Shown here: positions 18,930 to 34,963 of the stretch, piece by piece
How positions within the stretch are numbered: the stretch's first letter is position 1
Layout: each line of letters starts with the position of its first letter
Assembly: GCA_945875845.1 (NCBI GenBank)
Contig: CAMCMB010000017.1
Span: forward strand, 1-64,000
Length of the DNA stretch: 64,000 nucleotides
Reading direction: 5' to 3'
From: Pirellula staleyi DSM 6068
GTDB lineage: Bacteria > Planctomycetota > Planctomycetia > Pirellulales > Pirellulaceae
Program-made: the position numbers and the translations under genes
Notes under the pieces: generated by a model
Databases searched by the model: none
What the model was told of the DNA's origin: nothing
What the model saw: only the letters and a program-made list of their open reading frames with translations

Positions 18930-21005
18930 ATGACTTTTTCGAGAACGAATCGAATCGATCGACGGCGCCGAGTCATGCTCGATGCGGTTGCATCCGATGC
19001 CGACTACGCTGTGGAAGCCGTTCGAGCCAAGAGGCGCGCGCGGGCTCGCGAGCTTGAGAATCATTCCGAGGAGCAAGGTTATACCACCGCTTATCGGGAT
19101 CCAGGATACAGCCAAGCTGTTCGGCAAACGTGCCAACAACGCATGGTGCAACTCATACCGGTGCGACGAGGGACATTGACAATTGTCCTCGCGTGTATGT
19201 GGATTCTGTGGTGCGGTTTGCTCGCTTCCCATTACTGGATTCATGTTCGCATTCCTACGACCTCTGCGGCTGCGGCAACTACGAACGCGGGGTTCGCTTC
19301 GTTGCCAGTTTCGCAACTCTTTCATCTGCGATCTTCTCACAGTATCGCGCATTGGCTTACCTGTCAGCTTTGGATGCTCACCGCTTTGGCAGCCTGGATG
19401 ATTTTTCGTTTGAGGCGGCACAAACTGGATGACTACCGAGCCAAGTATCGGATCTGGGCTGTTTTGGCGATCGTCGCCCTCTTTTCCAGTTTCGACGCGT
19501 CCAGCTCTGGACTTTATCTGCTGGGAATAAGTATCGATGGCTGGGCTCGCAAAGAAATCGGATACGGTGGCTGGCCATTGGTGATGGCAACGTTCGCATC
19601 GCTGGTCGGAGTGCTCGGGATTCGACTTTGCAGTGAGCTCAAATCCGCACCGACGAGTGTCGCCTTTTGGCTCATCGGGCTTTTGTCATGGGCAATTTCC
19701 TCTTTGCTCGGTACAGGACTGATCAAAACGTCTTGGTCTCAGTCAAGCATTGACTTGGTGGTAGGTGGCTGTTGGTTGGGAGGTACGTTGGCAGTCTTTC
19801 AGGCGTCCGGAATCTATCTCCGTCAAACCTACATTCATGCACAAAAACGATTCCTGCAGCGGCAAGGCGCAAACCTGAATCCGATACAGTGGAAAATGCC
19901 GAAGATTTCATTGAAGCTAACTCGCAGTGAAAAAGGTGTTGAAGAAACAGACACGCCCGACAGTGAAGCATCCGACGTCGATGAACGTCGCAAATGGAAG
20001 CTACCCTGGCCCCGCAGAAGTGAAAAGTCACTGGATGCAGAGGATGCACGCGAGCAATGGACTCAAAGCACCAGCTCGCAAGCAAACAAGCAGCAAGCAC
20101 GAAACACACAGCATGGTCCATCGACCGTTCGTATCAACGAAAAAAACATGGACAAAACGGCCGACAAATCGGCCAACAAAGCCACTCAAGTAGAACAGAT
20201 TGATGATGAATTTGGTTCGCCCAAGAAGCCGCCGGGCCGACTGTTTGGAATCTTTCCGCATAGGCTCGAGCGAAATGAACGTCTCGAAGGCGAACCTATT
20301 CGCGAAGATGATGGGCCAATCCTAGACGCGGGCCTGACCAAGAAAAAGGGTTGGTTTGGAATAGGCGGCAGTCGCAATGCAGATGATCCTCAAAAGCAAA
20401 CAAAGAGAATAAAAGGGCATACAAATGGTTCGAAAATAACCGAACCGAACGGCACAAGCGTTCTCGAATCATCCGCCGATGCACCAAAAGACAAAGGATG
20501 GTTGCGGTCCATAAAGCGAACTGCTCCGCCACAACCCATCGTAGACTCAAAGTCCGATTCGGAAGCGTTGATGGTCAAACGAACTTGGATACCCAAGTTT
20601 GGTAAGAAAACCATTTCCAGCGAATCGGATCCGATTTCTGGTACCAAGCCAGCTAAGGCTCCAACCGCAACACCCAAAAAATCAGATTCAAAGTCCCCGA
20701 CTAGCGAACCTAGCACCGAAAAATCCGGTAAACGATCGTGGATGTCGTTTCCCTCTTTCAGACCAAAACTTTTCGGAATGTTGGATGGTTTTAAACTCAA
20801 ACCTCCGACAGACCAGACGGTTTCTGATGTCTCCAACCATTCCAGCAAGCCTGTGTCGATACAACAAGGACAAGTGCTTCCATCGACCAGATCTGCGGAG
20901 AGTGAAGAGGAAGACTCGGATGACAACGATTCAGGAAGACCGATGAGCAAAGCGGAACGCAAAAAACTACGTCGAACTCAGCAAGAGGATCGACGAGCCG
21001 CGTGA
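18930..21005 (+). CDS. Unrecognised membrane protein with long charged tail
   Basis: A 691-residue protein with no family that I recognise. The first ~75 residues are basic and cytoplasmic-looking (RAKRRARARELEN). Six hydrophobic segments follow between about 70 and 300, for example LTIVLACMWILWCGLLASHY, LWMLTALAAWMIFRL and VAFWLIGLLSWAISSLLGTG. The remaining ~380 residues are low-complexity, rich in Lys, Ser, Asp and Pro, and end SKAERKKLRRTQQEDRRAA; they are probably disordered. Short motifs such as KKGWFGIG, DKGWLRSI and KRTWIPKFG repeat along the tail. Start is ATG 18930. A MITE-like copy follows the stop directly. Confidence 0.6.
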   Translation: MTFSRTNRIDRRRRVMLDAVASDADYAVEAVRAKRRARARELENHSEEQGYTTAYRDPGYSQAVRQTCQQRMVQLIPVRRGTLTIVLACMWILWCGLLASHYWIHVRIPTTSAAAATTNAGFASLPVSQLFHLRSSHSIAHWLTCQLWMLTALAAWMIFRLRRHKLDDYRAKYRIWAVLAIVALFSSFDASSSGLYLLGISIDGWARKEIGYGGWPLVMATFASLVGVLGIRLCSELKSAPTSVAFWLIGLLSWAISSLLGTGLIKTSWSQSSIDLVVGGCWLGGTLAVFQASGIYLRQTYIHAQKRFLQRQGANLNPIQWKMPKISLKLTRSEKGVEETDTPDSEASDVDERRKWKLPWPRRSEKSLDAEDAREQWTQSTSSQANKQQARNTQHGPSTVRINEKNMDKTADKSANKATQVEQIDDEFGSPKKPPGRLFGIFPHRLERNERLEGEPIREDDGPILDAGLTKKKGWFGIGGSRNADDPQKQTKRIKGHTNGSKITEPNGTSVLESSADAPKDKGWLRSIKRTAPPQPIVDSKSDSEALMVKRTWIPKFGKKTISSESDPISGTKPAKAPTATPKKSDSKSPTSEPSTEKSGKRSWMSFPSFRPKLFGMLDGFKLKPPTDQTVSDVSNHSSKPVSIQQGQVLPSTRSAESEEEDSDDNDSGRPMSKAERKKLRRTQQEDRRAA

Positions 21006-21006
21006 C

Positions 21007-21112
21007 GCAAGTCAAAGTAGTAGGCACATTCCATGTGCCGTCCACCTAGAACCCTGGCAAAAGCTCGACTGCGAACAACACAGCAGAGCGTGCCTGCACC
21101 ATTTATTGACTT
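21007..21112. mobile_element. MITE-like element, copy B
   Basis: A reverse-orientation copy of the element at 621-738. Shared phrases are AAAGTAGTAGGCACATTCC, GTGCCGTCCACCT and AGCGTGCCTGC. The inverted ends are worn compared with copy A. It begins within a few bases of the stop codon of the preceding gene. Confidence 0.65.
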
Positions 21113-21253
21113 TGATCATACCAGTCTGCACGCCACTCCCAGGCAGGAAATGGGTCGAGAACAGGAACGTAGATGAATGGAATTCTTTTTATCATGACGC
21201 TCAGATGGTAAAATGGGTGAGGCGAAGGATTGATGGATTTTAGGGAGAAGAGA

Positions 21254-21499
21254 ATGTCGACGAGAAGACTATCACGAGACGAAATCGGCATGCGTCGTTC
21301 GGAAATCTACGAGTGTCAACTGCGTTCTACACTTGAGGCAACTGCCCTCGATCAGTTTGTTGCAATTGATGTTGAGACGGCTGAATACGAAGTTGCTGAC
21401 GAGGCGCACCTCGCGGGCGATCGCTTGCGAAAGCTTTTGCCAAACGCCCAGATTTTTATTGCTCGCATCGGTCATCGAGCTGCTTTCTTCGCACGTTAG
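21254..21499 (+). CDS. Small conserved-looking protein, unrecognised
   Basis: An 81-residue product from ATG 21254 starting MSTRRLSRDEIGMRRSEIYE. The core FVAIDVETAEYEVAD, ending with IFIARIGHRAAFFAR, resembles small cyanobacterial/planctomycete proteins in which a short beta segment (FVAI-D-E-G-Y) is followed by a late GHR motif. These are sometimes annotated next to aspartyl-protease or toxin-like genes. No partner is visible here. A purine-rich GGGAGAAGAGA directly precedes the ATG. It lies alone between copy B of the MITE-like element and the DGR locus; 21500-21880 has no gene and contains the region downstream of VR1. Confidence 0.5.
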   Translation: MSTRRLSRDEIGMRRSEIYECQLRSTLEATALDQFVAIDVETAEYEVADEAHLAGDRLRKLLPNAQIFIARIGHRAAFFAR

Positions 21500-21880
21500 C
21501 CGATTGGGTTCGCGACGGAACATTCCAAGTAGAACAACTTCGCTTGTAATCTAATGGCAACTCGACTTGTTTTAAGTTAGCGGAGAAGCGGAGATCTTTG
21601 GGACGGAACACTGGCGTCGACTTCTTAATCGCTTGAAAAACAACGGGAGAGCGAGGCTCCTGCCAAGCTGGGACCGCAATGGTTCGGCAGGAGCCTGAAC
21701 CTCCCGAGTAATGAATTGGTTTGAGAAAATCGTTGAAGACATGTTTACTTGGGTGGCCTCACCCCGCCGAGTAACGAAATGATGTGCAAAGGATTGTACT
21801 CTGGACTGCGGCTGCGCCATCCGCTACGGCCTCTTCGGTTGCGGCTAAGCACGCTCCTACCGGCCTACGCTCCAACTCCG

Positions 21881-24800
21881 CTACGTCCTGGGCTGCGCCG
21901 ATCCTGGACTCGACACTTGACCAGACGAACTCAAGGCGACACGAAAGCCCAGGTCGTAGTCCCGGTCCGACGGGAAGTACCTGAGACGGTACGCGGACCG
22001 ACAATTCCCGGCGGAGCCGCTCCAGCACCCGCCCCGGAACACCCGGAGCGAGCCTTCCTCCACATTATTGGGGTCGTACACTGAGTAGTACCAGTCTTCG
22101 CACCATTCCCACACGTTTCCAAGCATATCTTGCAAACCCCAGGGGTTGGCATGCGAAGCTACGGGCGGTGTCGTATGTCCGACCTCGTTTTCCGCATTGC
22201 ACTTCGTCGCATCAAATTCGTCACCCCACCAGTAGTTCTGGTCCCACGGAGTTCCAGCTTTGGCCGCGTATTCCCATTCGTACTCGTAAGGCAAGCGGCA
22301 CTGGCCCTCCCCCCAGCGGGCCCACTGGGCAAAGGCCCAGGAGTCGTACCAATTGACAAAGATCACCGGACAGTCCGGCGCGGGACTCGCACCTCCATAC
22401 TTATCGCGATAGCTGGAGTCCGATTCCCCGTGCCCAGGCGAGAACAAGCGATACCACTTATTCAATACCGGGGTGCTGCACATCCGGAATGCAGCGACTG
22501 TATGCACGCGCGTGGCGGGTGTCTCGTTTTGAGGAAACAATTGGTTCTCCAGTCGCTGTAGATTCTTATCTCGGAACAATTCGGTGTACCATTCAAGCCA
22601 GTACTCTCGTTCCTGTTGCCCCCGTTTGCCAGGTGTGAAACTCACGTTCGCAATGTGCTTCTTCGCCCGTTCAACGGGATCTCCGTCCTGCTCGATATAC
22701 GCTCGCCAGCGGTCCCGCAATTCTTCACCCATGCCTTGTTTCTCGGGCGGCGACCCCATCTGGAACTCACCGGCGGGAATGTCGATGAAGCTGTCGCAGA
22801 ACTGCCTTGCGACTTGCTCCGTCTCCCTGCCGCGACTCCCCGAGAGGACCTCGTTCGCGAACTCACCGACGAAGCGATTATGCAAGGCAATGGCCGCTGG
22901 CTCTGCCTGCTTGACAAGCGTCATCAGCGGTTTCCAGGCGCGATAAATGAATTCGCTCGAACGTCGTGTACCCGCAACCGTGCCGTCCCCAGGGCGATAG
23001 ATCGGTTCGATGGCACGAAGCCAGGACTTAGGATCCCGGCTATTGGAGTGCATCTCGCAGACAAAACGCCAGACCCAATAATACTCTTCGGTCTCGGGAC
23101 GGTCAGGCAGGTGCAGCCAGTCCCAAAGTTGTTTTACGTCGTCGTCGGTGCAGTATTGCGACAGCCACAGGGCCGTAAAGAATTCCTGCAGGGTGCGGTT
23201 CCGCCAGTAGACTTCCTGCAAGCCCTCTACTGTCGTGTAGAAGAAGCCCTGTGAGATGAACTCATTCAATGCCGCCAAGCCGTCCAGATCCCGGTCCAAC
23301 GAGGCATGGGCCGAGAGCCTTTTTTGGAGTTGTATTCGGAAATGCGGAAAACGGCCGCTCGGAACGCCGTCGAAATTAGGTATCGAAGGTGTCTTGGCAA
23401 GTCCGCCGTCGCCACCAGGGATCGGCGTCGAAGTCATCTCGAACGCGAGCCCAGCCAGGAGTTCCAGCGCACGCCGTTTGGAACGTGCCTGCACCTTCTC
23501 CGGCGCGCGTTCGCTGCTGTCGAGGCCGATCTTTCTTGCTGCTTCACTCCCCTGCATGCCCTCAACCAACAGGTGCTGGACCGAATGCCAATAGACATTG
23601 CCAGTCGTGCGGATATTTCTAAGATCGGCGTCCGGCAGCTCGCGCAGGTACGAGAGCACGCGCGGGGTGGAGAGGATTTCGCGGGCCTCTTGCGGAATCA
23701 ATTCCAGACGATTCTTTCCGCGCTGGTCAACGCGCAGGAATTGCCGCTGCTGATCGGGCGTGAACTCGTCGACCTGCACGAACCGCCAACCCCAACCGAG
23801 CTGACTGGCAAACAGCGCCCGCCAATGCCGCTGCAAGGCGTGAGGCCGTCCGCTGATCACGATGCGGCAACGATTCCAAGAGGAATCTTTGAGTAGCTCG
23901 CCAACCAGTATCGCCGCCGAACCGTCGGCGGGTTCCTGGTCCAAGGCATCCAGTATCAGGACCAAACGCCCTTCGTCTCGCAGCGACTCGATGATGCGAA
24001 CGGCGTCGTCTTGCCTTAGCAAATTCACGCTCTCGTCATCGCGTTGTTGTTTCTGCAGTATGCGTCGGGCGAGTTCGCAAAGCAATTCATCCACGTGGGC
24101 CGGAACATGGCTAAAGGTCAAATGGAAGGCAACCGTTGCCGCGCCAGGTCGATTCAATTCGGCTTCCAACCACTGCATGGTCGTCGTCTTGCCGACGCCG
24201 GCGTCGGTCGTAATGACCAATCGCGATAGGTCCACTCGCGACTCGTTCGCAACCGTCAGCTCGTTTGCGGCCAAATCAGCACGATCCACCTCAACCCAGT
24301 CACCGAGATCTTGCTCGGCCATGGACGATCGCGTTCCACGCCCGACGCGAAAATAAGCCGGATGCAAGTATTGCTCAGGCCGGTCCGTTTCCAGCAGCAG
24401 CCGCAACCCTTGCGTGTCGATGAAAGGAGGTTTGTCGCTGGTGCCGTCGCCGGACCACAGTTCTCGCCATCGCTGCTGGATCGCAAGCTGGTAGGACGAG
24501 ATAAGCTGTTCCGCTTGGCGTGCCCGGTCGACATTCTGGCCGGAATCGACTTGCTGCGCAAGGGCGGTTAGGTCCTTTGATTTCAAGAGACTCACCAGAG
24601 CGTTGAAATCGGTATCCCAGTCCCCGGTGCGCAGTTTCGCTACCTGGTAACTCGCCAGTTTCACCAGGTTGGGAAGGTCGACCAACGCGGCGGCTGGCAC
24701 GGGTGACGCTTTGTCGACGAGCACTGGAACGACCCGGCCTTCGATGGTGAGAGCCTCTTCGACTTCACGTCGAACCCAGTCGATCTCATTGTCGATCCGT

Positions 24801-26179
24801 CGGCGGCCGTATTCATCCTGTACCGTCAGCCATTGTTTGCCGATCAAAACGAGCACCACCTTGGCTCTCTTCACAGCATCCTCGATTCGGCCGGGCCATG
24901 TCTCTCCAGGCTCAATCGTTCGCCGATCAAAGAAGACCTGGTCCTGGCCGAAGACTCTCCGCAGCTCCACAGCAAGCCGATCGGCGGCTTGCAGCGTGTC
25001 CTTGATGCGATAGCTGACGAAGATCGATGCTGCTTGTCCCTTGGATATGCCGCTCACGAATGGGCCCTGGATATTCAGATACTCCCACCTCGTCGGCAGG
25101 AGCCGTATCTCCGGCTTAGAATCCCACGCCGTTGAACGCTCGTCCAACTGCAATCGTGCCCAGACCCAGTTTGCAAAAACTCGCTCGTAGATACGATTGC
25201 GATAAAGTACCTTCCTCTCGAACCCAATGAGGCCCGTAATGCCGAGGCGATCCCATTGAAGTTCGCTAAGTGATTCTCCTTCGACAGCCTGTCGCCAAAG
25301 TCGAAGTGTCTCGGGATCGCGTTCCACCATCTCTGCAATGTTGAGGAAGTGAATATCGGCAGCCGCACCATCAACAATCTTGTCCGTCAGCGAATCTACA
25401 CAGGCCAGAATAACTTCGAGCAAAGGCCTTTTACCAGTATTATCGGCTAGCCAGTCCCAGAGCTGTTCAAGGATGAGTTGAGTAAGATAGGGAGAACCGT
25501 TTGTGTGATAGTGCAGCCGTGCTGGAAGTTCACCCGAGAGCGGCAAGCCAAGCTGCTCAATGGGGCCACAGAGGTGGTGGAGTTCATCAAGAGAGAAGTC
25601 GTCGAGGCGGATGAATTTGCCAACATTGAATGGGGAGTGGGCATTAACGGTGATAAGTTCCGTGGCCCGCGCGGCGCCTGCTAGGACGAACTGCAAGCGT
25701 TTCAACTCCGGCATTGTGGCACGTTCATTAAACAGACTCCGGACATAACTGAAGAAAGTGTTCTTGATGCGGCTGGTGCGGAGAGCATCCACTTCGTCGA
25801 TGATGAGCACGACGCGCGGAAAGGAAATGGCGGCCAACAGCGTGAGGAGATCCTTTTTTGGGAGGCCCTGTACAGTCTGTGCAGGGATGTTTAGTGACTC
25901 GGCGAGGTCGACAAAAAAACGCTTGAGAAAGCGGTCGTAATCGTCGAATTCTTCGGGTCGAAAGACAGACAGATCGACGAACCCTACGCCGAAGTGAACC
26001 TTATCGAGTCCACTCCGAACATGATTGAGGAGACTCGACTTTCCGCTTTGCCGTGGGGCAAGTATATAGGGATATCGTTGATTTAGCTCGATGGCTTTCC
26101 GGAGATCGCGATCTGCTTCGCGTTCAGTGTAAACCGCCCCGGAAAATGTTCCAGCCGCGCGATAGGGGTTGGTGCTCAT
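21881..26179 (-). CDS. DGR target 1: AAA-TIR-NACHT-FGE/lectin protein
   Basis: 1432 residues. Domains in order: AAA-like ATPase (~1-260; Walker A APRQSGKSS at 41, Walker B VVLIIDEVDAL at 123), TIR (~383-500; SIFVSYRIKD, then WVRREVEEA holding the likely catalytic Glu), NACHT/STAND NTPase (~650-800; TTDAGVGKTTTMQW at 657, LVLILDALDQ at 739), a helical linker, and a formylglycine-enzyme-like/C-type lectin domain (~1131-1416; FIDIPAGEFQMGSPPE, CRLPYEYEWEYAAKAGT, DMLGNVWEWCEDW). Residues ~1376-1411 form the variable repeat. The start ATG overlaps the upstream TIR-ATPase stop by 4 bp. TIR domains of this sort commonly consume NAD+ in defence; the ligand of the FGE part is unknown. Confidence 0.88.
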   Translation of the reverse strand: MSTNPYRAAGTFSGAVYTEREADRDLRKAIELNQRYPYILAPRQSGKSSLLNHVRSGLDKVHFGVGFVDLSVFRPEEFDDYDRFLKRFFVDLAESLNIPAQTVQGLPKKDLLTLLAAISFPRVVLIIDEVDALRTSRIKNTFFSYVRSLFNERATMPELKRLQFVLAGAARATELITVNAHSPFNVGKFIRLDDFSLDELHHLCGPIEQLGLPLSGELPARLHYHTNGSPYLTQLILEQLWDWLADNTGKRPLLEVILACVDSLTDKIVDGAAADIHFLNIAEMVERDPETLRLWRQAVEGESLSELQWDRLGITGLIGFERKVLYRNRIYERVFANWVWARLQLDERSTAWDSKPEIRLLPTRWEYLNIQGPFVSGISKGQAASIFVSYRIKDTLQAADRLAVELRRVFGQDQVFFDRRTIEPGETWPGRIEDAVKRAKVVLVLIGKQWLTVQDEYGRRRIDNEIDWVRREVEEALTIEGRVVPVLVDKASPVPAAALVDLPNLVKLASYQVAKLRTGDWDTDFNALVSLLKSKDLTALAQQVDSGQNVDRARQAEQLISSYQLAIQQRWRELWSGDGTSDKPPFIDTQGLRLLLETDRPEQYLHPAYFRVGRGTRSSMAEQDLGDWVEVDRADLAANELTVANESRVDLSRLVITTDAGVGKTTTMQWLEAELNRPGAATVAFHLTFSHVPAHVDELLCELARRILQKQQRDDESVNLLRQDDAVRIIESLRDEGRLVLILDALDQEPADGSAAILVGELLKDSSWNRCRIVISGRPHALQRHWRALFASQLGWGWRFVQVDEFTPDQQRQFLRVDQRGKNRLELIPQEAREILSTPRVLSYLRELPDADLRNIRTTGNVYWHSVQHLLVEGMQGSEAARKIGLDSSERAPEKVQARSKRRALELLAGLAFEMTSTPIPGGDGGLAKTPSIPNFDGVPSGRFPHFRIQLQKRLSAHASLDRDLDGLAALNEFISQGFFYTTVEGLQEVYWRNRTLQEFFTALWLSQYCTDDDVKQLWDWLHLPDRPETEEYYWVWRFVCEMHSNSRDPKSWLRAIEPIYRPGDGTVAGTRRSSEFIYRAWKPLMTLVKQAEPAAIALHNRFVGEFANEVLSGSRGRETEQVARQFCDSFIDIPAGEFQMGSPPEKQGMGEELRDRWRAYIEQDGDPVERAKKHIANVSFTPGKRGQQEREYWLEWYTELFRDKNLQRLENQLFPQNETPATRVHTVAAFRMCSTPVLNKWYRLFSPGHGESDSSYRDKYGGASPAPDCPVIFVNWYDSWAFAQWARWGEGQCRLPYEYEWEYAAKAGTPWDQNYWWGDEFDATKCNAENEVGHTTPPVASHANPWGLQDMLGNVWEWCEDWYYSVYDPNNVEEGSLRVFRGGCWSGSAGNCRSAYRLRYFPSDRDYDLGFRVALSSSGQVSSPGSAQPRT
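21918..22056 (-). repeat. DGR variable repeat VR1 (3' end of target 1)
   Basis: It aligns without gaps to the template repeat 28138-28276 (offset 6220). Positions 21918-21953 (coding LGFRVALSSSGQ) are identical to the TR and form the IMH-like anchor; 21954-22048 is the variable core. In the TR-5' half of the core, VR1 has 10 differences: 9 at template adenines (AAC to CTC, TTC, AGC and GGC; AGC to TGC; AGG to GGG) and one silent C to T. In the other half it has 12, only 3 at template adenines. Most changes alter amino acids. Confidence 0.85.
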
Positions 26180-27504
26180 GAATCGTGATAGCTGTCCACG
26201 TTAGAGATAATTGCGGCAAGTTTCACTTCTTCGGCCCCATCACGGTATGCATGCCAGAGCCGGTCCGCGACGAACTGAAGCTTGCGAGGTTTTAGTTCTG
26301 AATGACGCTGAATTTCGTCGAACAGTCCGTCGGCGACTACCCAAACAGATTCAGGTAGCAATGCCAGGAGTCGCTTAGCCTCAGCTTCGTTGAACCACTT
26401 CATTGTAATTGTCTTCCACAAACGAAGGTGTTCGCCACGGTTTACGCCACATTCGTTGAGGATTACATCGAATCCCGTGATAAGAGTTACAACTACACGT
26501 AATCTTCCACTCGAATCGCGGACCTGATTCATTAGTTGCGGAAGCAGCACTTTAGCACCGGGTCCAGCCATTGTCGCGAACTCATCTATTACGACGAGGG
26601 TAGGCGTTTTCTTGACACGTTTACCGAGTTCGGGAAGCGAATTGAGATCTCCAAAAGCGTGTGAGAAAAAGGCGAGAAAGCGATCAACACAGTTTTCCAC
26701 CTTATCGGCGCGTAGGTCGGATAGTGAAATAGAAACAACCGTCCACGCGGGGTCAAGGAATTGAGAAGCTCGATTCATAAGACTCGTTTTTCCGGTTTCG
26801 GATTCCCCGATGAACGCAATGCAAGGCCTTCTAGGGTCGTGGAGCAGCGCCTTAAAAGTTCTGTCAAATTCGCGAGTAACATAGCTTGGTTCATCGGGTG
26901 ACATACTCGTCGCCGTGTAAAACGGAGAGACATCCTCGGATAGCTTTTTTGGCGATTCCTCTTGTGACGCAAAATGACGCTCCCCTCGCGCCCCCCCGTC
27001 CCCTGCTGCGGTTCGGTGATCACGAGTATTTAGTTGAGCATGTAAGCGCTGGACGTAGTAGTCCCTCGGTTTGTCTTCATTGAGAGCGAGTCGTTCTAAA
27101 ATCAGCTTCGCTGTTTCGACAGGCGATTTATCGTCGAGTTCAATGAAGCCAGCGGTAGGCGCGAGGCCATCGGCTTGTGCGTAGTCGAATCGACTCGGCA
27201 TGACGCGACGGCCGTCCGCATTGGTAAGCAGACCGTAGATATGGATCCACTCCCAGCCGGTCCAACGCTTCACATCGTAGTGTGGGCAGAGCACAGGGAC
27301 GATGAGTTCACAGTTTTCACTGTAGAGCTTGGGCAAGTATATGCCGAGATCAAAGCGTGCAAGTTCCGCTTCATGGAACTTGTCGTAAAGGATCGCCTCT
27401 TCGCCAAAGCAATCGGCGAGAATGCGAGCAACCTTTTCGACAAAGTCTCGCTTCTCCCCGGCAAAGGAGAAAGCGATTCGGAAGCGTTTGTCAGTAGTGG
27501 ACAT
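26176..27504 (-). CDS. TIR domain-ATPase protein, partner of target 1
   Basis: 442 residues. The N-terminal ~150 form a bacterial TIR domain (RIAFSFAGEKRDFVEKVA; ELIVPVLCPHY; KRWTGWEWIHI). After a charged linker comes a STAND/AAA-type ATPase with Walker A IGESETGKTS at 232 and Walker B TLVVIDEFAT at 302. The C-terminus is helical. Its stop overlaps the start of target 1 by 4 bp (ATGA), so the two are translated together and probably act as one complex. The likely role is effector or signal relay in a conflict system, inferred from TIR plus ATPase architecture. It has no VR of its own. The start is ATG 27504. Confidence 0.82.
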   Translation of the reverse strand: MSTTDKRFRIAFSFAGEKRDFVEKVARILADCFGEEAILYDKFHEAELARFDLGIYLPKLYSENCELIVPVLCPHYDVKRWTGWEWIHIYGLLTNADGRRVMPSRFDYAQADGLAPTAGFIELDDKSPVETAKLILERLALNEDKPRDYYVQRLHAQLNTRDHRTAAGDGGARGERHFASQEESPKKLSEDVSPFYTATSMSPDEPSYVTREFDRTFKALLHDPRRPCIAFIGESETGKTSLMNRASQFLDPAWTVVSISLSDLRADKVENCVDRFLAFFSHAFGDLNSLPELGKRVKKTPTLVVIDEFATMAGPGAKVLLPQLMNQVRDSSGRLRVVVTLITGFDVILNECGVNRGEHLRLWKTITMKWFNEAEAKRLLALLPESVWVVADGLFDEIQRHSELKPRKLQFVADRLWHAYRDGAEEVKLAAIISNVDSYHDS

Positions 27505-27589
27505 GCTAGTTACTAAAAGTCGCGAGCGAAAAGTAGAAGCTGGAGCATCAAAGGGGGGCTTAGTCGAGCCGCAAGGGGTTGATACTTCG

Positions 27590-27731
27590 CTCCTTGCCCG
27601 GTCAACATTCTAGCTGGAATCGGCTTGCGCGAGGACCAGCAAGCCGTTTGACGTCAAGAGATTCACCAGAGCGTAGAAGTCGGAGTCCCGGTCTTGGGTG
27701 CGCAGTTTCGCTGCTTGGCAATTCGCCAGTC
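27590..27731 (-). pseudogene. Remnant of a third TIR-NACHT-FGE target gene
   Basis: About 140 bp closely match the TIR-to-NACHT linker of targets 1 and 2 (24510-24660 and 32575-32670). The minus strand reads AKLRTQDRDSDFYALVNLL, where target 1 has AKLRTGDWDTDFNALVSLL. Further on it reads DSS-stop-NVDRAR, where target 1 has DSGQNVDRAR, so a TAG stop replaces the glutamine. Nothing else of the gene survives on either side. Confidence 0.8.
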
Positions 27732-27952
27732 AACCGCAAAAGAAGCGGCCATCATACTTTAGCAATACAAAACTGCGGCTCTTCGTCAGACCAAGGGAAC
27801 TGCTGAAAAGAAAAATGTTCAATGCCAATTTGCACCATCCAGCCGTATGGGGCGCACGTTGTTCATTCAAAATCTGCACATATTGTGCGACTGAAGAAAC
27901 GAGTTCAATTCCTGTTGCAAAGTAACGGGATCGCTTGTCGGCACAGTGAAAA

Positions 27953-28137
27953 TTCGGAATGCCATGGAAAACGTCCCACATCAGTGATTTTTTTGACGTT
28001 ATTTTCCACCGATCTGTTCACTGAAAACCGGCTCCGCCTTTCACTCCGGCACCTACGGAGCGGCTACGCACGCTCCTACGGGCCTACGTTACAGGCTCCG
28101 CTATTTCCTGGGCTTCGCCGGCCCCGGACTCGACTCC
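27953..28137. repeat. Conserved TR-downstream segment
   Basis: The part nearest the TR (28030-28137) matches the sequence after VR2 (29870-29973) and, more weakly, after VR1. The outer part (27953-28095) matches 33195-33331. It contains the inverted pair GGAGCG/CGCTCC around CTACGCA, able to form a hairpin. Such conserved sequence downstream of the IMH is expected to support target recognition in a DGR. The gap 27732-27952 shows no gene. Confidence 0.65.
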
Positions 28138-28276
28138 TGACCAGACGAACTCAAGGCGACACGAAAGCCCAGGAAGTCGTACCGGTTCGACGGGATGAGC
28201 CCGTCACGGAACGCGGACCGGCAATTCCTGGCGGAGTTGTTCCAGCTCCCGCCCCGGTTCACCCGGTTCGAGCCTT
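28138..28276 (-). repeat. DGR template repeat (TR), with a VR-like 3' half
   Basis: In the target reading frame the TR reads GSNRVNRGGSWNNSARNCRSA, an Asn-rich run of AAC codons typical of templates, but then FRDGLIPSNRYDFLGF, where a template would also be Asn-rich. In 28212-28268 the TR has 12 coding-strand adenines, and 15 of 16 differences from the two VRs fall on them. In 28173-28211 only 5 of 18 do. The first 73 bases of the repeat (28204-28276) are also the last codons of the reverse transcriptase. No better template is visible in the window. Confidence 0.8.
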
Positions 28277-29286
28277 TCGACCGCCGCCGCCAAACGTTCT
28301 AACACCTTTCGACGGAAATTCCAACTGGCCAGTCCACCCGCTTGAGTGAATTCGACCAAAGAAGTGGCCCGCTGCTGCATTTCAAGTTCGCCGATTTCGC
28401 CGCGCGAATGCTCAAGCTCTATTGAGTGCAGCTTGCGACGAAATCGGACCCGGCTTCGCCGATTCAATACCATGCGGCTCGGGAAAACCCGCGCGCCCAA
28501 GAAATCGACCCCGTGTACCGAGCGATTCCAATAGGGAGTCGGTTTGAGCGTCAGCCCCAAATTGTCGAACAAGAATTCGGAAATCCTAGCAAGTGCCTGG
28601 CGCAGTTCGCCTCTGGTTGCGCCCCAAATCAATATGTCGTCCATATACCGAACATATCCCGCCGCCCGCAATTGTTCCTTGGCGAAACGGTCGAACCATC
28701 CGAGATAGAAGTTGGCGAAGTGCTGAGAGGTAAGACTGCCAATGGGTAGCCCAACTCCGACCGTCGCGCGATGTGAACGGACGATTCGTTCCAGAAGTTC
28801 AAGCAGTTGCCGGTCTTTGAACAGTCGCTGCAGGCGACTGTTCAACGCTTCATGCGGCACGCTGTCGAAGTAGTGTCTAATGTCGAGTTTTAAGAACCAG
28901 TGAAATCGCTGCGAGAATGTCTGGGCGCGAGCCAGCGCCTTAAGACGCCCCTTGCCGACGCGGCAGGCATACGTGTCGTAAATCAGCCATCGCTCAAACA
29001 CCGGCTCGCAGACGTTCATGATCGCGTGATGCATGACGCGCTCCTCGAAACAGGGCGCTGTAATGATACGTCGCTTGGGGTCGTGAATGACGAATTGTCT
29101 CGACCGGCCAACCGGAAATGTGCCCTCGCATACTTGCTCTGCCATCGTTTCAAGACGGGTGTGCAACGCAACAGCGAACTCGCGAGTTTCGGCCCGGACA
29201 CGCTTACCACGGCTAGCGCGGAAAAACGCTCGCAGCAGATTGTCAGGTTCGATGATCCTATCAAACAGTTGGCCCGCTCGACGCAT
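28204..29286 (-). CDS. DGR reverse transcriptase
   Basis: 360 residues, the usual size for a DGR RT with fingers/palm and a short thumb and no maturase or endonuclease domain. Palm motifs: FLKLDIRHYFDSVPH (Asp135), LPIGSLTSQHFANFYL (residues 181-196), VRYMDDILIW (YMDD 214-217), then GLTLKPT and VDFLGARV. The IGxxxSQ form of motif 4, in place of QGxxxSP, marks the DGR clade. It would copy TR RNA with adenine-specific errors. ATG 29286 lies inside the end of the HRDC gene (26-bp overlap), which indicates coupling. The C-terminal ~24 residues (ERLEPGEPGRELEQLRQ..) are encoded within the TR. Confidence 0.92.
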   Translation of the reverse strand: MRRAGQLFDRIIEPDNLLRAFFRASRGKRVRAETREFAVALHTRLETMAEQVCEGTFPVGRSRQFVIHDPKRRIITAPCFEERVMHHAIMNVCEPVFERWLIYDTYACRVGKGRLKALARAQTFSQRFHWFLKLDIRHYFDSVPHEALNSRLQRLFKDRQLLELLERIVRSHRATVGVGLPIGSLTSQHFANFYLGWFDRFAKEQLRAAGYVRYMDDILIWGATRGELRQALARISEFLFDNLGLTLKPTPYWNRSVHGVDFLGARVFPSRMVLNRRSRVRFRRKLHSIELEHSRGEIGELEMQQRATSLVEFTQAGGLASWNFRRKVLERLAAAVERLEPGEPGRELEQLRQELPVRVP

Positions 29287-29749
29287 TGGGCTCGGCTCCG
29301 TTTTTAGAAATTACCGCAAGAACCTGCTCACCGAACTTCTCGATGCGGGCATCGCCGACGCCGTCGATCTTCTCCAAGTCGGCTTTCGTCGCGGCGCGCA
29401 GTTCGACCATCTTTGCAAGTTGTTCGTTCGTAAACACCATGTAGGGTGGAATAGCCTGTGCAGCCGCGAGATCGCGTCGCCAGTCCTTGAGCAAACAATA
29501 AAGACGAAAATCACTGGGGGACAACCGTTCTCGATAGTCGATTCGGTCACGCGCGGCAGCGGCCACGGGCGCAGTCGCGGATTTTCGACGCTCAAGGTAT
29601 TCGATGCAAAAGCACCACGAGCTATGTTCTCCCTGGTCTGACCAGCGCCGCTCAATCTCAACGATCTGATGCGCCGCCAGAAAGGCGTTTAGTTCGGCCT
29701 CGGCTTCACGCGGCCAATGAACAGGAATAAAAAATGTTCGATATGGCAT
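29261..29749 (-). CDS. HRDC-domain DGR accessory protein
   Basis: 162 residues from ATG 29749, which has a strong ribosome site (GCGGTGAG about 6 bases upstream); a longer frame from 29860 would run through the VR2-downstream region and is less likely. The N-terminal half (RTFFIPVHWPREAEAELNAF) is a small alpha/beta segment. The C-terminal half is an HRDC domain (VFTNEQLAKMVELRAATKAD, then IDGVGDARIEKFG), a helical nucleic-acid-binding module. HRDC proteins replace the Avd protein in a subset of DGRs, where the accessory binds the RT and template RNA. It sits directly before, and overlaps, the RT. Confidence 0.85.
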   Translation of the reverse strand: MPYRTFFIPVHWPREAEAELNAFLAAHQIVEIERRWSDQGEHSSWCFCIEYLERRKSATAPVAAAARDRIDYRERLSPSDFRLYCLLKDWRRDLAAAQAIPPYMVFTNEQLAKMVELRAATKADLEKIDGVGDARIEKFGEQVLAVISKNGAEPNASSGPTV

Positions 29750-29832
29750 CAACTCACCGCTAATTTTCGTGGATCTGAGCGCAAGAAAACTACGCAAATA
29801 CCCTAAATTAACACACTGTAAACACAAACGCG

Positions 29833-29849
29833 CCAGGGCTTCGCCCTGG
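29833..29849. promoter_or_regulatory. Hairpin downstream of VR2 (possible DGR cruciform)
   Basis: CCAGGGC-TTC-GCCCTGG forms a perfect 7-bp stem with a 3-base loop, about 125 bp beyond the invariant anchor of VR2 and about 90 bp beyond the target 2 stop. In well-studied DGRs a short GC-rich stem-loop after the IMH raises retrohoming efficiency. It is not present at the matching place after VR1 or the TR. It could equally be a simple terminator of target 2, although it has no T-tract. Confidence 0.5.
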
Positions 29850-29936
29850 ACCCAATTCATTGCACCGCTCCGCCTTGCACTCCGGCACCTACGGAGCGGC
29901 TACGCACGCTCCTACGGGCCTACGTTCCAGGCTCCG

Positions 29937-32900
29937 CTACTTCCTGGGCTGCGCCGACCCCGGACTTGACACCTGACCAGACGAACTCAAGGCGACACGA
30001 AAGCCCAGGAAGTTGAACCGGTTCGACGGGTAGAACCCGTAACGGAACGCGGACCGGCAAAACCCGGCGGAGTTGATCCAGCTCCCGCCCCGGATCACCC
30101 GGTCCGAGCCTTCCTCCACATCATTGCGGTCGTACACTGCCTGGTACCAATCCTCGCACCATTCCCACACGTTTCCAAGACTATCTTGCAAACCCCAGGG
30201 GTTGGCATGCGCAGCTACGGGCGGAGTCGTACGTCCGACGTTCCTATCCGCATTGCTCTTCGTCGCATCGAATTCGTCGCCCCACCAGTAATTCTGGTCC
30301 CACGGAGTGCCAGCTTTGGCCGCGTATTCCCATTCGTACTCGTGAGGCAAGCGGCACTGGCCCTCCTCCCAGCGAGCCCACTGGGCAAAGGCCCAGGCGT
30401 CGTACCAATTGACAAAGATCACCGGACAGTCCGGCGCGGGACTCGCACCTCCATACTTATCGCGATAGCTGGAGTCCAATTCCCCGTGCCCCGGAGAGAA
30501 CAATCGAAACCAATCGTTCAATACTGGGGTGCGGCACAGCCGAAATGCAGCGACCGTCTGCACACGCGTGGAGGGTGTCTCGTTTTGAGGAAACAATTGG
30601 TTCTCCAGTCGCTGTAGATCCTTATTTCTAAATATTTCAGTGAACCATTCAAGCAAGTCCTCGCGTTCCTGCTGACCCCGTTTGCCAGGTGTGAAACTCC
30701 AATCGGCGATGTGCTGCTTCGCCCGCTCCTCGGGATCTCCGTCCTGCTCGATATACGCTCGCCAGCGGTCCCGCAATTCTTCACCCATGCCTTGTTTCTC
30801 GGGCGGCGACCCCATCTGGAACTCACCGGCGGGAATGTCGATGAAGCTGTCGCAGAACTGCCTTGCGACTTGCTGTGTCTCGGTGCCGCGAACGCCCGAG
30901 AGAAGCTCGTTGGCGAACTCACCGACGAAGCGATCGCGCAACGCGATCGCTGCTGGCTCTGCCTGGTCGACAAAGGTCATCAGCGGTATCCAGGCGCGAT
31001 AAATGAATTCGCTCGACCGCCGCGTGCCCGCAACCGTGCCGTCCCCAGGGCGATAGATCGGCTCGACGGCACGAAGCCATGACTCAGGATCCCGTTTATC
31101 GGAGTGCATCTCGCAGACAAAACGCCAGACCCAGTAATACTCTTCGGACTCCGGACGGTCAGGCAGGTGCAGCCAGTCCCAAAGTTGTTTTGCGTCGTCG
31201 TCGGTGCAGTATTGCGACAGCCACATGGCCGTAAAGAATTCCTGCAGGGTGCGGTTCCGCCAGTAGACTTCCTGCAAGCCCGCTACTGTCGTGTCGAAGA
31301 AGCCCTGTGAGATGAACTCATTCAGTGCCGCCAAGTTGTCCAGATCCCGGTCCAACGAGTCATCCGTCGAGAGCCTCTTTTGCAGTTGTTTTCGGAACCG
31401 GGGAAAACGGCCGCTCGGAACGCCGTCGAAATTAGGTATCCGAGGTGTCTTTGCAAGTTCGCCGTCGCCGCCAGGGATCGGCGTCGAAGTCATCTCGAAC
31501 GCGAGCCCAGCCAGCAGCTCCAGTGCGCGCCATTTGGAACGTGCCTGCACTTTTTCCGGTGTCGGTTCGCCGCTCTTTAGCCCAATTCGTCTTGCTGCTT
31601 CGCTCCCCTGCATGCCCGCAACCAGCAGGTGCTGAACCGAATGCCAATAGACGTCGCCAGCCGTGCGGATTTTTCTAAGATCGGCGTCCGGCAGCTCGCG
31701 CAGGTACGAGAGCACACGTGGGGTGGAGAGGATTTCGCGGGCCTCTTGCGGAATCAATTCCAGACGATTCTTTCCGCGCTGGTCAACGCCCAAGAATTGC
31801 CGCTGCTGGTCGGGCGTGAACTCATCGACCTGCACAAACCGCCAACCCCAACCGAGGTGACTGGCAAACAGCGCCTGCCAATGCCGCTGCAAGGCGTGTG
31901 GCCGACCGCTGATCACGATGCGGCAACGTTTCCAAGAGGAGTCTTGAAGGAGCTCGCCAACCAGTATCGCCGCCGAACCGTCGGCGGGTTCCTGGTCCAA
32001 GGCATCCAGTATCAGGACCAAACGACCCTCGTCTCGCAGCGACTCGATGATGCGAACGGCGTCGTCTTGCGTCAGCCAATTCACCCTCCCGTCATCGCGT
32101 TGTTGTTTCTGCAGTAGCCGTCGGGCAAGTTCGCAAAGCAATTCATGAACGTGGGCCGGAACATGGCTGAAGGTCAGATGGAAGGCGACCGTTGCCGCGC
32201 CGGGTCGATTCAATTCGGCTTCCAGCCACTGCATGGTCGTTGTCTTGCCGAGGCCAGCGTCGGTCGTTATGACCAATCGCGACAGGTCCACTCGCGACTC
32301 GCCATCAACCGCCAGCTCGTTTGCGGCCAATTCAGTACGATCCACCTCAACCCAGTCACCGAGATCTTGCTCGGCCATGGACGCTCGCGTTCCGCGCCCG
32401 ACTCGAAAATACGCCGGATGCAAGTATTGCTCAGGCCGATTTGTGTCCAGTAGCAGCCGCAATCCTTGCGTGTCGATGAAAGGAGGTTTGTTGCTGTTTC
32501 CGTCGCCGGACCACAGTTCTTGCCATCGATGCTGGATCGCGAGTTGGTAGGAAGTGAGAAGCTGGTCCTTGAGGACGATTAGGACCTTTGACTTCAGAAG
32601 ATTCACCAGAGCGTTGAAGTCGGAGTCCCAGTCCTCGGTTCGCAGTTTCGCTGCCTGGTAACTCGCCAGTTTCACCATGTTGGGAAGGTCAACCAACGCG
32701 GCGGCTGGCACGGGTGACGCTTTGTCGACGAGCACTGGAACGACCCGGCCTTCGATGGTGAGAGCCTCTTCGACCTCACGTCGAACCCAGTCGGTCTTGT
32801 TGTCAATCCGTCGACGGCCGTAGTCATCCTGTACCGTCAGCCATTGTTTGCCGATCAACACGAGCACCACCTTGGCTTCCTTCACCGCACCCTCGATACG

Positions 32901-33068
32901 TTCGTCCCATGTCTCTCCGGGCTCGATCGTTCGCCAATCAAAGAAGACCTGGTCCTTGCCAAAGGCACTCCGCAGCTCCACAGCAAGCCGATCGGCGGCT
33001 TGCTGTGTGTCCTTGATGCGATAGCTGACGAAGATCGATGCTGCTTGTCCCTTGGATATGCCGCTCAC
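29937..33068 (-). CDS. DGR target 2: TIR-NACHT-FGE/lectin protein
   Basis: 1043 residues, a close paralogue of target 1 from its residue 375 onward, with a 15-residue deletion in the linker after the TIR. Order: TIR (~10-130; SIFVSYRIKD, WVRREVEEA), NACHT (Walker A TTDAGLGKTTTMQW at ~268; LVLILDALDQ), helical linker, FGE/C-type lectin domain (~742-1027; CRLPHEYEWEYAAKAGT, DSLGNVWEWCEDW), with the variable repeat at ~987-1022. The N-terminal AAA module of target 1 is missing: similarity stops about 12 bp upstream of the GTG start at 33068. It is the first gene of the HRDC-RT run. Probable role: TIR effector with a diversified sensor. Confidence 0.88.
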   Translation of the reverse strand: MSGISKGQAASIFVSYRIKDTQQAADRLAVELRSAFGKDQVFFDWRTIEPGETWDERIEGAVKEAKVVLVLIGKQWLTVQDDYGRRRIDNKTDWVRREVEEALTIEGRVVPVLVDKASPVPAAALVDLPNMVKLASYQAAKLRTEDWDSDFNALVNLLKSKVLIVLKDQLLTSYQLAIQHRWQELWSGDGNSNKPPFIDTQGLRLLLDTNRPEQYLHPAYFRVGRGTRASMAEQDLGDWVEVDRTELAANELAVDGESRVDLSRLVITTDAGLGKTTTMQWLEAELNRPGAATVAFHLTFSHVPAHVHELLCELARRLLQKQQRDDGRVNWLTQDDAVRIIESLRDEGRLVLILDALDQEPADGSAAILVGELLQDSSWKRCRIVISGRPHALQRHWQALFASHLGWGWRFVQVDEFTPDQQRQFLGVDQRGKNRLELIPQEAREILSTPRVLSYLRELPDADLRKIRTAGDVYWHSVQHLLVAGMQGSEAARRIGLKSGEPTPEKVQARSKWRALELLAGLAFEMTSTPIPGGDGELAKTPRIPNFDGVPSGRFPRFRKQLQKRLSTDDSLDRDLDNLAALNEFISQGFFDTTVAGLQEVYWRNRTLQEFFTAMWLSQYCTDDDAKQLWDWLHLPDRPESEEYYWVWRFVCEMHSDKRDPESWLRAVEPIYRPGDGTVAGTRRSSEFIYRAWIPLMTFVDQAEPAAIALRDRFVGEFANELLSGVRGTETQQVARQFCDSFIDIPAGEFQMGSPPEKQGMGEELRDRWRAYIEQDGDPEERAKQHIADWSFTPGKRGQQEREDLLEWFTEIFRNKDLQRLENQLFPQNETPSTRVQTVAAFRLCRTPVLNDWFRLFSPGHGELDSSYRDKYGGASPAPDCPVIFVNWYDAWAFAQWARWEEGQCRLPHEYEWEYAAKAGTPWDQNYWWGDEFDATKSNADRNVGRTTPPVAAHANPWGLQDSLGNVWEWCEDWYQAVYDRNDVEEGSDRVIRGGSWINSAGFCRSAFRYGFYPSNRFNFLGFRVALSSSGQVSSPGSAQPRK
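29974..30112 (-). repeat. DGR variable repeat VR2 (3' end of target 2)
   Basis: It aligns without gaps to the TR (offset 1836). 29974-30009 is the invariant anchor and 30010-30104 the variable core. In the TR-5' half all 6 differences lie at template adenines (AAC to GAC, AAC to ATC twice, AGG to GGG, AAT to TTT with two changes). In the other half 6 more occur, 2 at adenines. VR2 is closer to the TR than VR1, as expected for the nearer, perhaps more recently overwritten, target. Confidence 0.85.
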
Positions 33069-33194
33069 GAATGGGCCACTTCTTTGTTCAGGTTAGAGTC
33101 CGACGTACACACCTTGCGAGATAGATTAACATAAATCGCGGTTACGATATCGACGCTGAGGATCGAAACGGGGGGCTCGAATCCGCACTATAAA

Positions 33195-33331
33195 ATTCCG
33201 AATGCCATGGAGAACGTCCGATCAGTGATCTTTTGTCGTTGTTTTCAGCGGATGTGTAAACTGAAAACCAGCTACGCCTTTCACTCCGGCAACTACGGAA
33301 AAGCTACGCACGCTCCTAAGGGCCTACGTTC
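33195..33331. repeat. Partial copy of the TR/VR-downstream region ahead of target 2
   Basis: It matches 27953-28095: GAATGCCATGGA, ATCAGTGAT, CTGAAAACC, CCTTTCACTCCGGCA, CTACGCACGCTCCTA and GGGCCTACGTT occur in the same order. The copy breaks off at about 33331, before any VR or IMH sequence. It looks like the 3' flank of a lost upstream module. The following 33332-33997 holds no gene; it contains a GC-rich palindrome (CCCTCGCCCCGC/GGGGAGAGGG near 33408-33433) and a dispersed repeat. Confidence 0.7.
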
Positions 33332-33710
33332 TCTTCTTTACCCACATTTCAGAACACGCTCGGCTCGAAATCCCAATGGATTTGCGTGATCTCCGTGCGT
33401 TTTCTCCCCCTCGCCCCGCTTCGGGGAGAGGGGGTCGGGGGGTGAGGGGTAGAGCCCTGACATCGAAGCCTCAGGTGCAGCGCTTTGTTTACGCTTCTGG
33501 AACGAGGCTAGACATTGAATTCAAGATCAAAATCCAAATCAAAACACAGTGTAATTTCCTCACCCCCGCCCCTCTCCCCGAGACCAGGGCGAGGGGAGCA
33601 AGATCAAAAGAATTGGGTAAAGATGAGGCGTCTCGCCCATGGATTCACGAGCGACCGCGCTCGTGCCACGCAAGGGTAACCCGTGCCCGTGAGCGAGGAG
33701 CCAACTGCAA

Positions 33711-33824
33711 TCCCTCGCTTACCGGCTTGTTGATTTAATGAAGTCGTTATTGGGAAAGGGCGGTAAGACGGACTTCCAAGTCCGTCAATGGAGAATTCGA
33801 CGGACTAGGAAGTCCGTCGTACCA
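33711..33824. repeat. Dispersed palindromic repeat, second copy
   Basis: It repeats the 5433-5545 block in the same order: CTCGCTTACCGGCTTGTTGA, then a GAAGTCGTTATTGG phrase, then the inverted pair around GGACTTCCAAGTCC and GGACTAGGAAGTCC. One arm has a single base change compared with the first copy. A single right arm is found again at about 40003-40036. Confidence 0.72.
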
Positions 33825-33997
33825 TTAAAGCAACAAGCCGTTACGCTTCGGGTTGGGATACTGCAATCTGCCTCTCGCCTTGCAACTTGCCGGAATCGGA
33901 CAGACCGACGGATTTCCTCCCCATCCGCCAGTAGGTTGAGTTTGCTACAATGGCGAATTCCCATTTTGAAAACAACCATCTCTTGGAGACGATTCGG

Positions 33998-34963
33998 ATG
34001 ACCTCTCAGAAAACACCTCTTGACCGTAGAACGTTTTTATCCGCTAGTGCGATTGCGGCCGCTGCCGTTACCGGAGCAACGCAAGCATCCGCCACTGAAA
34101 AGGCCGCCGAAAATCAGAGCCTACCTGTGCCGCCCTCCGGAAAAAAGATCTTGATCTCTTGCAAACTTGGAATGATCACCAAAGAGGTGGGTGGCAAGAA
34201 GCTGTCGTTAACCGAACGACTCAAACTGGCTGGCGAAGCAGGTTTCGATGGCGTCGATTTCGATGAAGCTGGAATGTTCACGGTGGAGCAAGCGAGGGCC
34301 GCGGTTCAGGAATCGGGCGTGTTTTGTCACAATGCGATCAACCATGCACATTGGGATATGCGATTGACTAGCCCCAAGGAAGCGGATCGTGCGAAAGGCG
34401 TTGCCAACATCGAACATTGCTTGCGCGTATCGCATGCAATCGGCGGAAGCGGTGTGTTGATCGTGATCGGACGGGGAGACGATGGTACAGCCGAAGAAAT
34501 AGACGCTAGGGCTCAGCAGGAAATCAAGAAAATGATCCCTTTAGCAGCATCGATAGGTCAATCGATTCTATTCGAAAATGTTTGGAACAAGATGCATTAC
34601 GATCACGATGCTCCGCCTGAGCAGAATCCCGATCGATTCATTCGATTTGTCGATAGTTTCAATAGTCCATGGGTCGGCATGTATTATGACATCGGCAACC
34701 ACTGGAAGTATGGGCAGCCACGTGCATGGCTCAAGGCATTTGGTCGGCGCGCCGTGAAACTGGATATCAAGGGTTTTAGCAGAGCCAAGAACAAGTTTGT
34801 GGATATCACTTCGGAGGATGATGATTTGCCTTGGGGCGATGTGCAAAAGGGGCTCGACGAAATCGGCTTCACAGGCTGGGCGACGGCTGAGGTTGGCGGC
34901 GGCGGCTTGGAACGTTTAACCCTCGTCCGCAAGCAAATGCAAAAAGCGTTGGGTCTCTCTTGA
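33998..34963 (+). CDS. Sugar phosphate isomerase/epimerase-like protein, Tat-exported
   Basis: A xylose-isomerase-like TIM-barrel protein (AP endonuclease family 2 fold) of about 321 residues. ATG 33998 gives a twin-arginine leader (LDRRTFLSASAIAAAAVTG); a longer start at 33950 would push the leader inward. Barrel landmarks include LAGEAGFDGVDFDEAG, HNAINHAHWDM, the likely metal ligand in ILFENVWNKM, and MYYDIGNHWKYGQPRAWL. Many planctomycetes carry large sets of such secreted isomerase-like proteins; the substrate cannot be read here. It is monocistronic. Confidence 0.83.
   Translation: MTSQKTPLDRRTFLSASAIAAAAVTGATQASATEKAAENQSLPVPPSGKKILISCKLGMITKEVGGKKLSLTERLKLAGEAGFDGVDFDEAGMFTVEQARAAVQESGVFCHNAINHAHWDMRLTSPKEADRAKGVANIEHCLRVSHAIGGSGVLIVIGRGDDGTAEEIDARAQQEIKKMIPLAASIGQSILFENVWNKMHYDHDAPPEQNPDRFIRFVDSFNSPWVGMYYDIGNHWKYGQPRAWLKAFGRRAVKLDIKGFSRAKNKFVDITSEDDDLPWGDVQKGLDEIGFTGWATAEVGGGGLERLTLVRKQMQKALGLS

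Follow-up and report, generated by a model that had tools for sequence, protein, structure and literature searches.

In the diversity-generating retroelement (DGR) of Bordetella phage BPP-1, sequence is transferred from a template repeat (TR) to a variable repeat (VR) with changes directed to adenines, the 3′ end is invariant, like an initiation of mutagenic homing (IMH) sequence, and a hairpin follows the VR (accessible text of PMC3240598 and PMC12875486). The HRDC-type DGR of Treponema denticola has a reverse transcriptase (RT) with an overlapping HRDC gene, FGE/C-lectin targets and several targets per TR, according to the accessible part of PMC4891356. The degenerate DGRs of Thiohalocapsa PB-PSB1 hold damaged parts beside targets that resemble conflict systems (PMC10907252, accessible part). 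A DGR with these likenesses lies on the minus strand of a 64,000-nucleotide stretch of Pirellula staleyi DSM 6068 (GenBank assembly GCA_945875845.1, contig CAMCMB010000017.1, positions 1 to 64,000), which we call the window. By its base differences, this DGR has a chimeric TR, in which the 5′ half is normal and rich in adenine and the 3′ half is that of a VR. The arrangement departs from the described systems. In the accessible accounts, BPP-1 has Avd, a TR placed before the RT and a TR 3′ end unlike that of its VR, whereas the window has HRDC and a TR with the end and hairpin of a VR. T. denticola has its accessory gene between TR and RT, while the window reads HRDC-RT-TR and its chimeric TR is without its own flank.

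The whole TR spans 28277-28152 on the minus strand, as do all features below. The retained, adenine-rich 5′ half lies at 28212-28277 and the VR-derived 3′ half at 28152-28211, the latter closing with a 21-nucleotide (nt) invariant IMH-like stretch (28152-28172). We compared the TR with the two VRs of the window, VR1 (21932-22056, in target 1) and VR2 (29988-30112, in target 2). Pooling both VRs, we find that the 12 template adenines of 28212-28268 carry 15 of 16 TR/VR differences. In comparison, only 5 of 18 differences fall on template adenines in 28173-28211 (Fisher P = 1e-4 for the adenine share between the halves). With the present TR taken as template, confinement of differences to adenines thus holds in the 5′ half and fails in the 3′ half. 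A preliminary description of the window had called the TR chimeric, adenine-limited in its 5′ half and already VR-like in its 3′ half, and its coordinates and counts were reproduced. It had also singled out TTC, GAC, CTC, ATC, TAC, GAC and TTC as codons that do not belong in a template; the codons of 28173-28211 read TTC CGT GAC GGG CTC ATC CCG TCG AAC CGG TAC GAC TTC, as it stated.

The closest relative that we found is locus L014 of Pirellula sp. Tobar2m-G36 (genome G016; L014 is the same contig as G016:C180), whose RT is 98% identical to that of the window. In the same half, the L014 TR reads AAC CGT AAC AGG AAC AAC CCG TCG AAC CGG AAC AAC AAC. All 11 differences between the window TR and the L014 TR in this 39-nt half fall on the 17 adenines of L014 (hypergeometric P = 7e-6), and so do all 21 differences of VR1 and VR2 from the L014 TR. 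On the other side of the junction, 28212-28268 differs from the L014 TR at 1 position. We collected 26 TRs (L014 among these), and every one has 12-19 adenines in these 39 nt; the set is partly non-independent (L012 and L052 are copies in one genome, and L038 and L039 are near-identical). The window TR has 6 there, and three VRs have 6, 7 and 11. Since L014 and 26 of 26 TRs are adenine-rich there and the differences fall on L014 adenines, the state of the window TR is derived, and its 3′ half is a piece of a VR. A related genome with an AAC-rich 3′ half had been set beforehand as the test for the ancestral state, and L014 supplies it. In one codon of the 5′ half, the L014 TR reads ATC where the window and C38 TRs read AAC; ATC also stands there in the TRs of L033, L035 and L044, and we place no weight on it.

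Of the TR-like matches, 26 AAC-rich rows were kept. We omitted L019, L020 and L023 (AAC-rich, 3′ part only), VR-like matches and repeat copies of one place; L022, L025, L026, L027, L040 and L043 gave no TR match at the threshold used. The preliminary description had named a second, fully adenine-rich template as the finding that would overturn it, and none fitting VR1 and VR2 was found in the 7.0 Mb assembly. The window genome has other adenine-rich TRs, on contigs C38 and C129 and, in the form of a C129-type copy, on C1, all of lower similarity. The C38 TR is 78% identical to the window TR, and identity to the L014 TR is 85% for C38, 71% for C129 and 72% for C1. The copy on C1 (G000:C1:223620-223883; L052, L056) is a 95%-identical copy of the C129-type TR with its 3′ flank, and the RT search listed no RT on C1; it may be an orphaned template or what remains of a lost DGR.

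The junction between the two halves lies within 28211-28229, with the last template-type base at 28229 and the first VR-type base at 28211. At 28229 the window TR has A, and the VRs of the two compared genomes, including that on contig C269 of the relative, have G. Positions 28212-28223 are identical between the window TR and VR2, and the two partners share only about 12-18 nt where they meet. Viral contigs were scanned for exact matches to the junction, with 0 found.

Past the TR end, the tail and hairpin of a VR replace the TR's own flank (28027-28151); this VR-like sequence, which reaches to about 28027, is absent from the preliminary description. Over 28031-28151, we count 7/121 differences from the VR2 flank and 6/121 from the VR2 flank of L014, in comparison with 75/121 from the TR flank of L014. 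Without gaps there are 48 differences from the VR1 flank, but only 6 within the first 46 positions. The likeness to the VR2 flank stops near 28027. A target-type hairpin now adjoins the TR at 28057-28076, the same predicted hairpin as beside VR2. Folded with DNA parameters, it has a z score of about -2 and 9/200 shuffles fold as well, which is weak on its own. The stretch holding this hairpin and intergenic sequence (27949-28090) is 84.5% identical over 142 columns to the stretch upstream of target 2 (33192-33330). When L014 3180-3800 was used as the query, the window locus matched positions 1-162 only. In the 7.0 Mb assembly, which is 99.95% complete, no match to the TR flank of L014 exceeded 36 bases (best E 0.08).

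The last 21 nt are identical in the window TR, VR1, VR2 and the L014 TR, and the flank beyond the window TR is of VR type. Since TRs (that of L014 included) and VRs share this end, direction in this DGR family would lie in the flank. A distinct TR 3′ end (IMH* as opposed to IMH) as a mark of direction is not seen in the window TR. Judged from these comparisons, the chimeric template now bears the marks of a recipient, namely a target-type hairpin and the invariant end.

Relatives carry a stem-loop past the TR end, with a loop that opens with a GTAG-like word. We scored stems by a fixed rule, using the anchor GTA[GAC] and the best adjacent stem, against 200 dinucleotide shuffles. The anchor is loose and present also in the window and VR flanks, so that the stem score alone discriminates. 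In 15/26 TR flanks, the score (25.5-37) was matched by at most 1/200 shuffles, and the stem-loop is clear beside the TRs of L014 and C38 and 13 further TRs; that of L014 folds with z = -4.2 (DNA parameters). Weaker flanks were matched by 5 (L012 and L024), 6 (L034), 9 (L018), 10 (L039) and 14 (L017) of 200 shuffles, and the weakest by 26 (L052), 37 (L045), 68 (L038) and 125 (L031), with no site in L042. The chimera flank of the window scored 17.5 (29/200 shuffles) and four VR flanks scored 14-17.5 (55-144/200 shuffles). A TR-specific 3′ flank with the stem-loop is not seen beside the window TR. Three MAFFT alignments of TR flanks (A1-A3) left the 3′ arms of the stem-loop unaligned, and Rfam gave no match at the gathering score in window positions 21000-34000 and six of the loci. 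The distance from the TR end to the stem-loop is about 75-155 nt, and a run of T often comes after the stem-loop (examples are L014 3324-3474 and L011 7018-7169). With its GTAG-like loop word it spans HRDC-type DGRs of several phyla, and the template RNA may end there.

The accessible text of PMC12875486 describes for BPP-1 a spacer 3′ of the TR that adopts a fold, brings in the enzyme complex and primes the synthesis of complementary DNA (cDNA). We liken this structured RNA to the flank of the intact TR. By this analogy, the stem-loop of the lost flank is possibly the RNA part that loads the RT.

The explanation that we hold to be rather likely is a homologous crossover between the TR and a VR. 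Such a crossover would join the template 5′ half to the VR 3′ half, and everything behind the donor VR would come along: tail, hairpin and intergenic sequence. The letters themselves display the junction at 28229-28211, VR-type sequence that extends to about 28027, a close relative with the intact form, and no clear match to its TR flank in the assembly. The VR tail and hairpin are present and the TR flank does not return, which argues for a crossover, since cDNA made from the TR carries no VR tail. A short conversion tract is disfavoured because it would return to the TR's own flank. After the crossover, the template would have lost the RNA element that loads the RT and would be silent. RT and HRDC would stay open but idle, and the VRs of both targets would keep their last variants.

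In the BPP-1 model, information enters the VR at its 3′ end (accessible text of PMC3240598), so that VR1 or VR2 would be expected to carry the chimera's 3′ half if the chimera had been copied. The 3′ halves of VR1 and VR2 do not derive from the chimera, as 5/18 differences fall on chimera adenines. This count speaks against copying from the present template, and would mean either that the DGR has been silent since the event or that the event is very recent. Because the stem-loop flank is lost and neither VR shows signs of having been copied from the chimera, we take silence of the whole DGR to be probable, rather than a half-frozen state. The preliminary description had predicted frozen diversity in half of the binding face, which now looks unlikely.

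The history of the DGR core adds to this explanation. Between the window and L014, 22/1583 sites of the HRDC-RT core differ, and 28152-30112 is 98.6% identical to L014 1363-3323, while nearby genes of the two genomes are 86-95% identical in DNA. Synonymous divergence (pS) from L014 is 7/244 in RT and 6/131 in HRDC (0.03-0.05). In comparison, six protein genes near the locus differ from their G016 counterparts with pS 0.23-0.38 (gapless pairs, >60% identity over at least half the gene, n=6), most of these counterparts sitting on contigs other than that of the DGR. The target bodies of the two genomes show pS 0.18-0.19, and the syntenic downstream stretch 20154-18857 is 87.6% identical to the relative. 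The core is thus far closer to L014 than its surroundings are, which points to a recent exchange. Near-identity sets in at VR2 with its first base (30112) and lasts to the final base of the TR (28152); to the left of this stretch the target body is unrelated between the genomes at the DNA level. As both edges of this young stretch lie inside repeats, the sequence suggests that the DGR core arrived by recombination at its own VR and TR. The crossover may therefore have accompanied the arrival of the core (VR end-hairpin-HRDC-RT-TR) from a relative, and this step is less certain than the crossover itself. We offer tentatively that DGR cores pass between species by homologous recombination at their own repeats: the core block would have entered a resident VR, with both ends supplied by the resident target gene. 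If the right crossover fell inside the TR, the newcomer would have kept its enzyme and lost the flank, and the target-like template would have been dead on arrival.

VR2 is disfavoured as the donor of the 3′ half. The chimera flank differs from the VR2 flank at 7/121 positions, beyond the core divergence of 22/1583 (P = 0.003), while the VR2 flanks of the two genomes differ at 3/121, in line with core divergence (P = 0.4). Excess divergence of the chimera flank would also follow from relaxed evolution of the flank.

Several points weigh against the crossover explanation and the silence of the DGR. The stem test gives no clean separation: 11/26 TR flanks lie outside 0-1/200 shuffles, L042 is without a site, and L031, L038 and L045 are worse than or about as bad as the window. 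What the flank would do in a DGR of HRDC type is carried over from BPP-1. The ratio of nonsynonymous to synonymous divergence (pN/pS) from L014 is 0.27 for RT and 0.10 for HRDC, which shows no decay; undecayed genes are in keeping with a recent event, and also with a DGR that still works. No particular VR is singled out as the donor. A mis-join or a mixed population could also have produced the chimera in the assembly.

Among the other explanations, a later deletion survives best. The locus would once have read RT-TR-flank-target-VR-hairpin, and recombination between TR and VR as direct repeats would have looped out the flank together with a target gene of about 3 kb. L014 has just such a layout, with a target whose VR3 lies behind the TR as a direct repeat, the two starting 3175 bp apart, and target remnants adjoin the chimera in the window. 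The 7/121 differences from the VR2 flank, above what the core predicts, also look as if another VR had been the donor. However, the VR3 flank of L014 is not the nearest to the chimera flank, and under the deletion a second event must account for where the young stretch begins on the left, with base 1 of VR2. We regard this history as conceivable, and its probability is counted inside that of the crossover, of which it is a sub-case with another history. Arrival receives a little more weight, because one event accounts for both edges.

An assembly artefact is unlikely. In this case the true TR would have been mis-joined into a VR in an assembly of metagenome type with 149 contigs and 3.55% contamination, TR and VR being near-identical repeats. 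The orphaned halves of such a mis-join were not found in the assembly, where neither a TR flank of L014 type nor an additional TR or VR of the kind turned up. A query with target 2 in the window genome finds itself, target 1, the chimera and the remnant, and at E 1e-10 the target 2 body has no other match; a target body unrelated to it would go unnoticed in that search. Moreover, the sequence shared at the junction amounts to only about 12-18 nt, and neither the VR1 nor the VR2 flank is what the joined flank copies. The preliminary description had named an assembly error as a finding that would undo its proposal; it now looks improbable, though, judged from the assembly, it keeps a small share of the probability.

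We give still less credence to gene conversion or mutagenic retrohoming that overwrote the TR 3′ part in place, with a working DGR and half its positions frozen. The 3′ polarity of the replaced half suits cDNA entry at the 3′ end, and the RT and HRDC frames are open. Against this, the replaced stretch includes the VR tail and hairpin, which cDNA made from the TR would not carry, the TR flank is not regained, and neither VR1 nor VR2 derives from the chimera. Of the proposal in the preliminary description that VR sequence overwrote the TR, the VR nature of the 3′ half thus stands, and retrohoming or a short conversion tract is not supported. That the window form is ancestral, or its TR always adenine-poor in that half, is very improbable: we found nothing in its favour beyond the one adenine that the L014 TR itself lacks (ATC for AAC), all 26 collected TRs are adenine-rich there, and the window VRs differ from the L014 TR solely at adenines in that half (21/21).

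The genes of the locus follow one another on the minus strand as target 2 with VR2 near its end, hairpin, HRDC gene, RT gene and TR. Past the TR come the VR-type tail and hairpin, a target remnant, a TIR-AAA gene and target 1 with VR1. Target 2 (29937-33068) is a TIR-NACHT-FGE protein of 1043 aa by Pfam, and its VR2 is followed by the hairpin at 29893-29912. The HRDC-domain accessory protein (29261-29860; Pfam HRDC E 1.4e-18) overlaps the RT gene, an arrangement known for a DGR accessory from T. denticola (accessible part of PMC4891356). The RT gene (28204-29286) is an open frame of 360 aa (Pfam RVT_1 E 5.8e-17), the end of which overlaps the TR. Its motifs YMDD and IGSLTSQ identify an RT of DGR type, the SQ motif being a mark of DGR RTs. 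NCBIfam gave only sub-cutoff matches for this RT, to other RT families. The target-gene remnant (27595-27730) shares 83-87% identity with target 2 and 78% with target 1. The TIR-AAA protein gene (26176-27504) overlaps the start of target 1 (21881-26179), which is an AAA-TIR-NACHT-FGE protein of 1432 aa by Pfam. A VR thus stands at the 3′ end of a C-lectin-type (FGE) target and is followed by a hairpin, itself weak by shuffles (9/200). The TIR and STAND-like targets of the locus together resemble conflict systems. In the relative, a separate contig (L064, G016:C269, 45-2888) carries a TIR-NACHT-FGE target whose VR belongs to the same type, so that this DGR type has remote targets.

Degenerate DGR loci are already known. 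In DGR 7 of Thiohalocapsa PB-PSB1, the TR was lost to repeats like miniature inverted-repeat transposable elements (MITEs), and intact variants persist in the population, one having been seen in long reads (accessible part of PMC10907252). Loss there came by transposon and MITE-like repeats, whereas in the window it would have come by recombination between TR and VR. Such recombination is termed rare in an E. coli reporter, in the accessible text of PMC12875486. A literature search, with most subscription papers outside its reach, found no paper on a TR fused to a VR, and a template fused to its own target is apparently unreported.

A DGR must keep its template clean despite near-identical target copies, and this locus would be a natural case of failure through TR-VR recombination. 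The pair of an intact and a broken template with almost the same enzyme makes the RNA needs of an HRDC-type DGR testable. For those who survey such elements, the locus is a warning that RT, TR and VR at one place need not mean an active DGR. It also suggests a route by which DGR cores may move between genomes and switch target genes.
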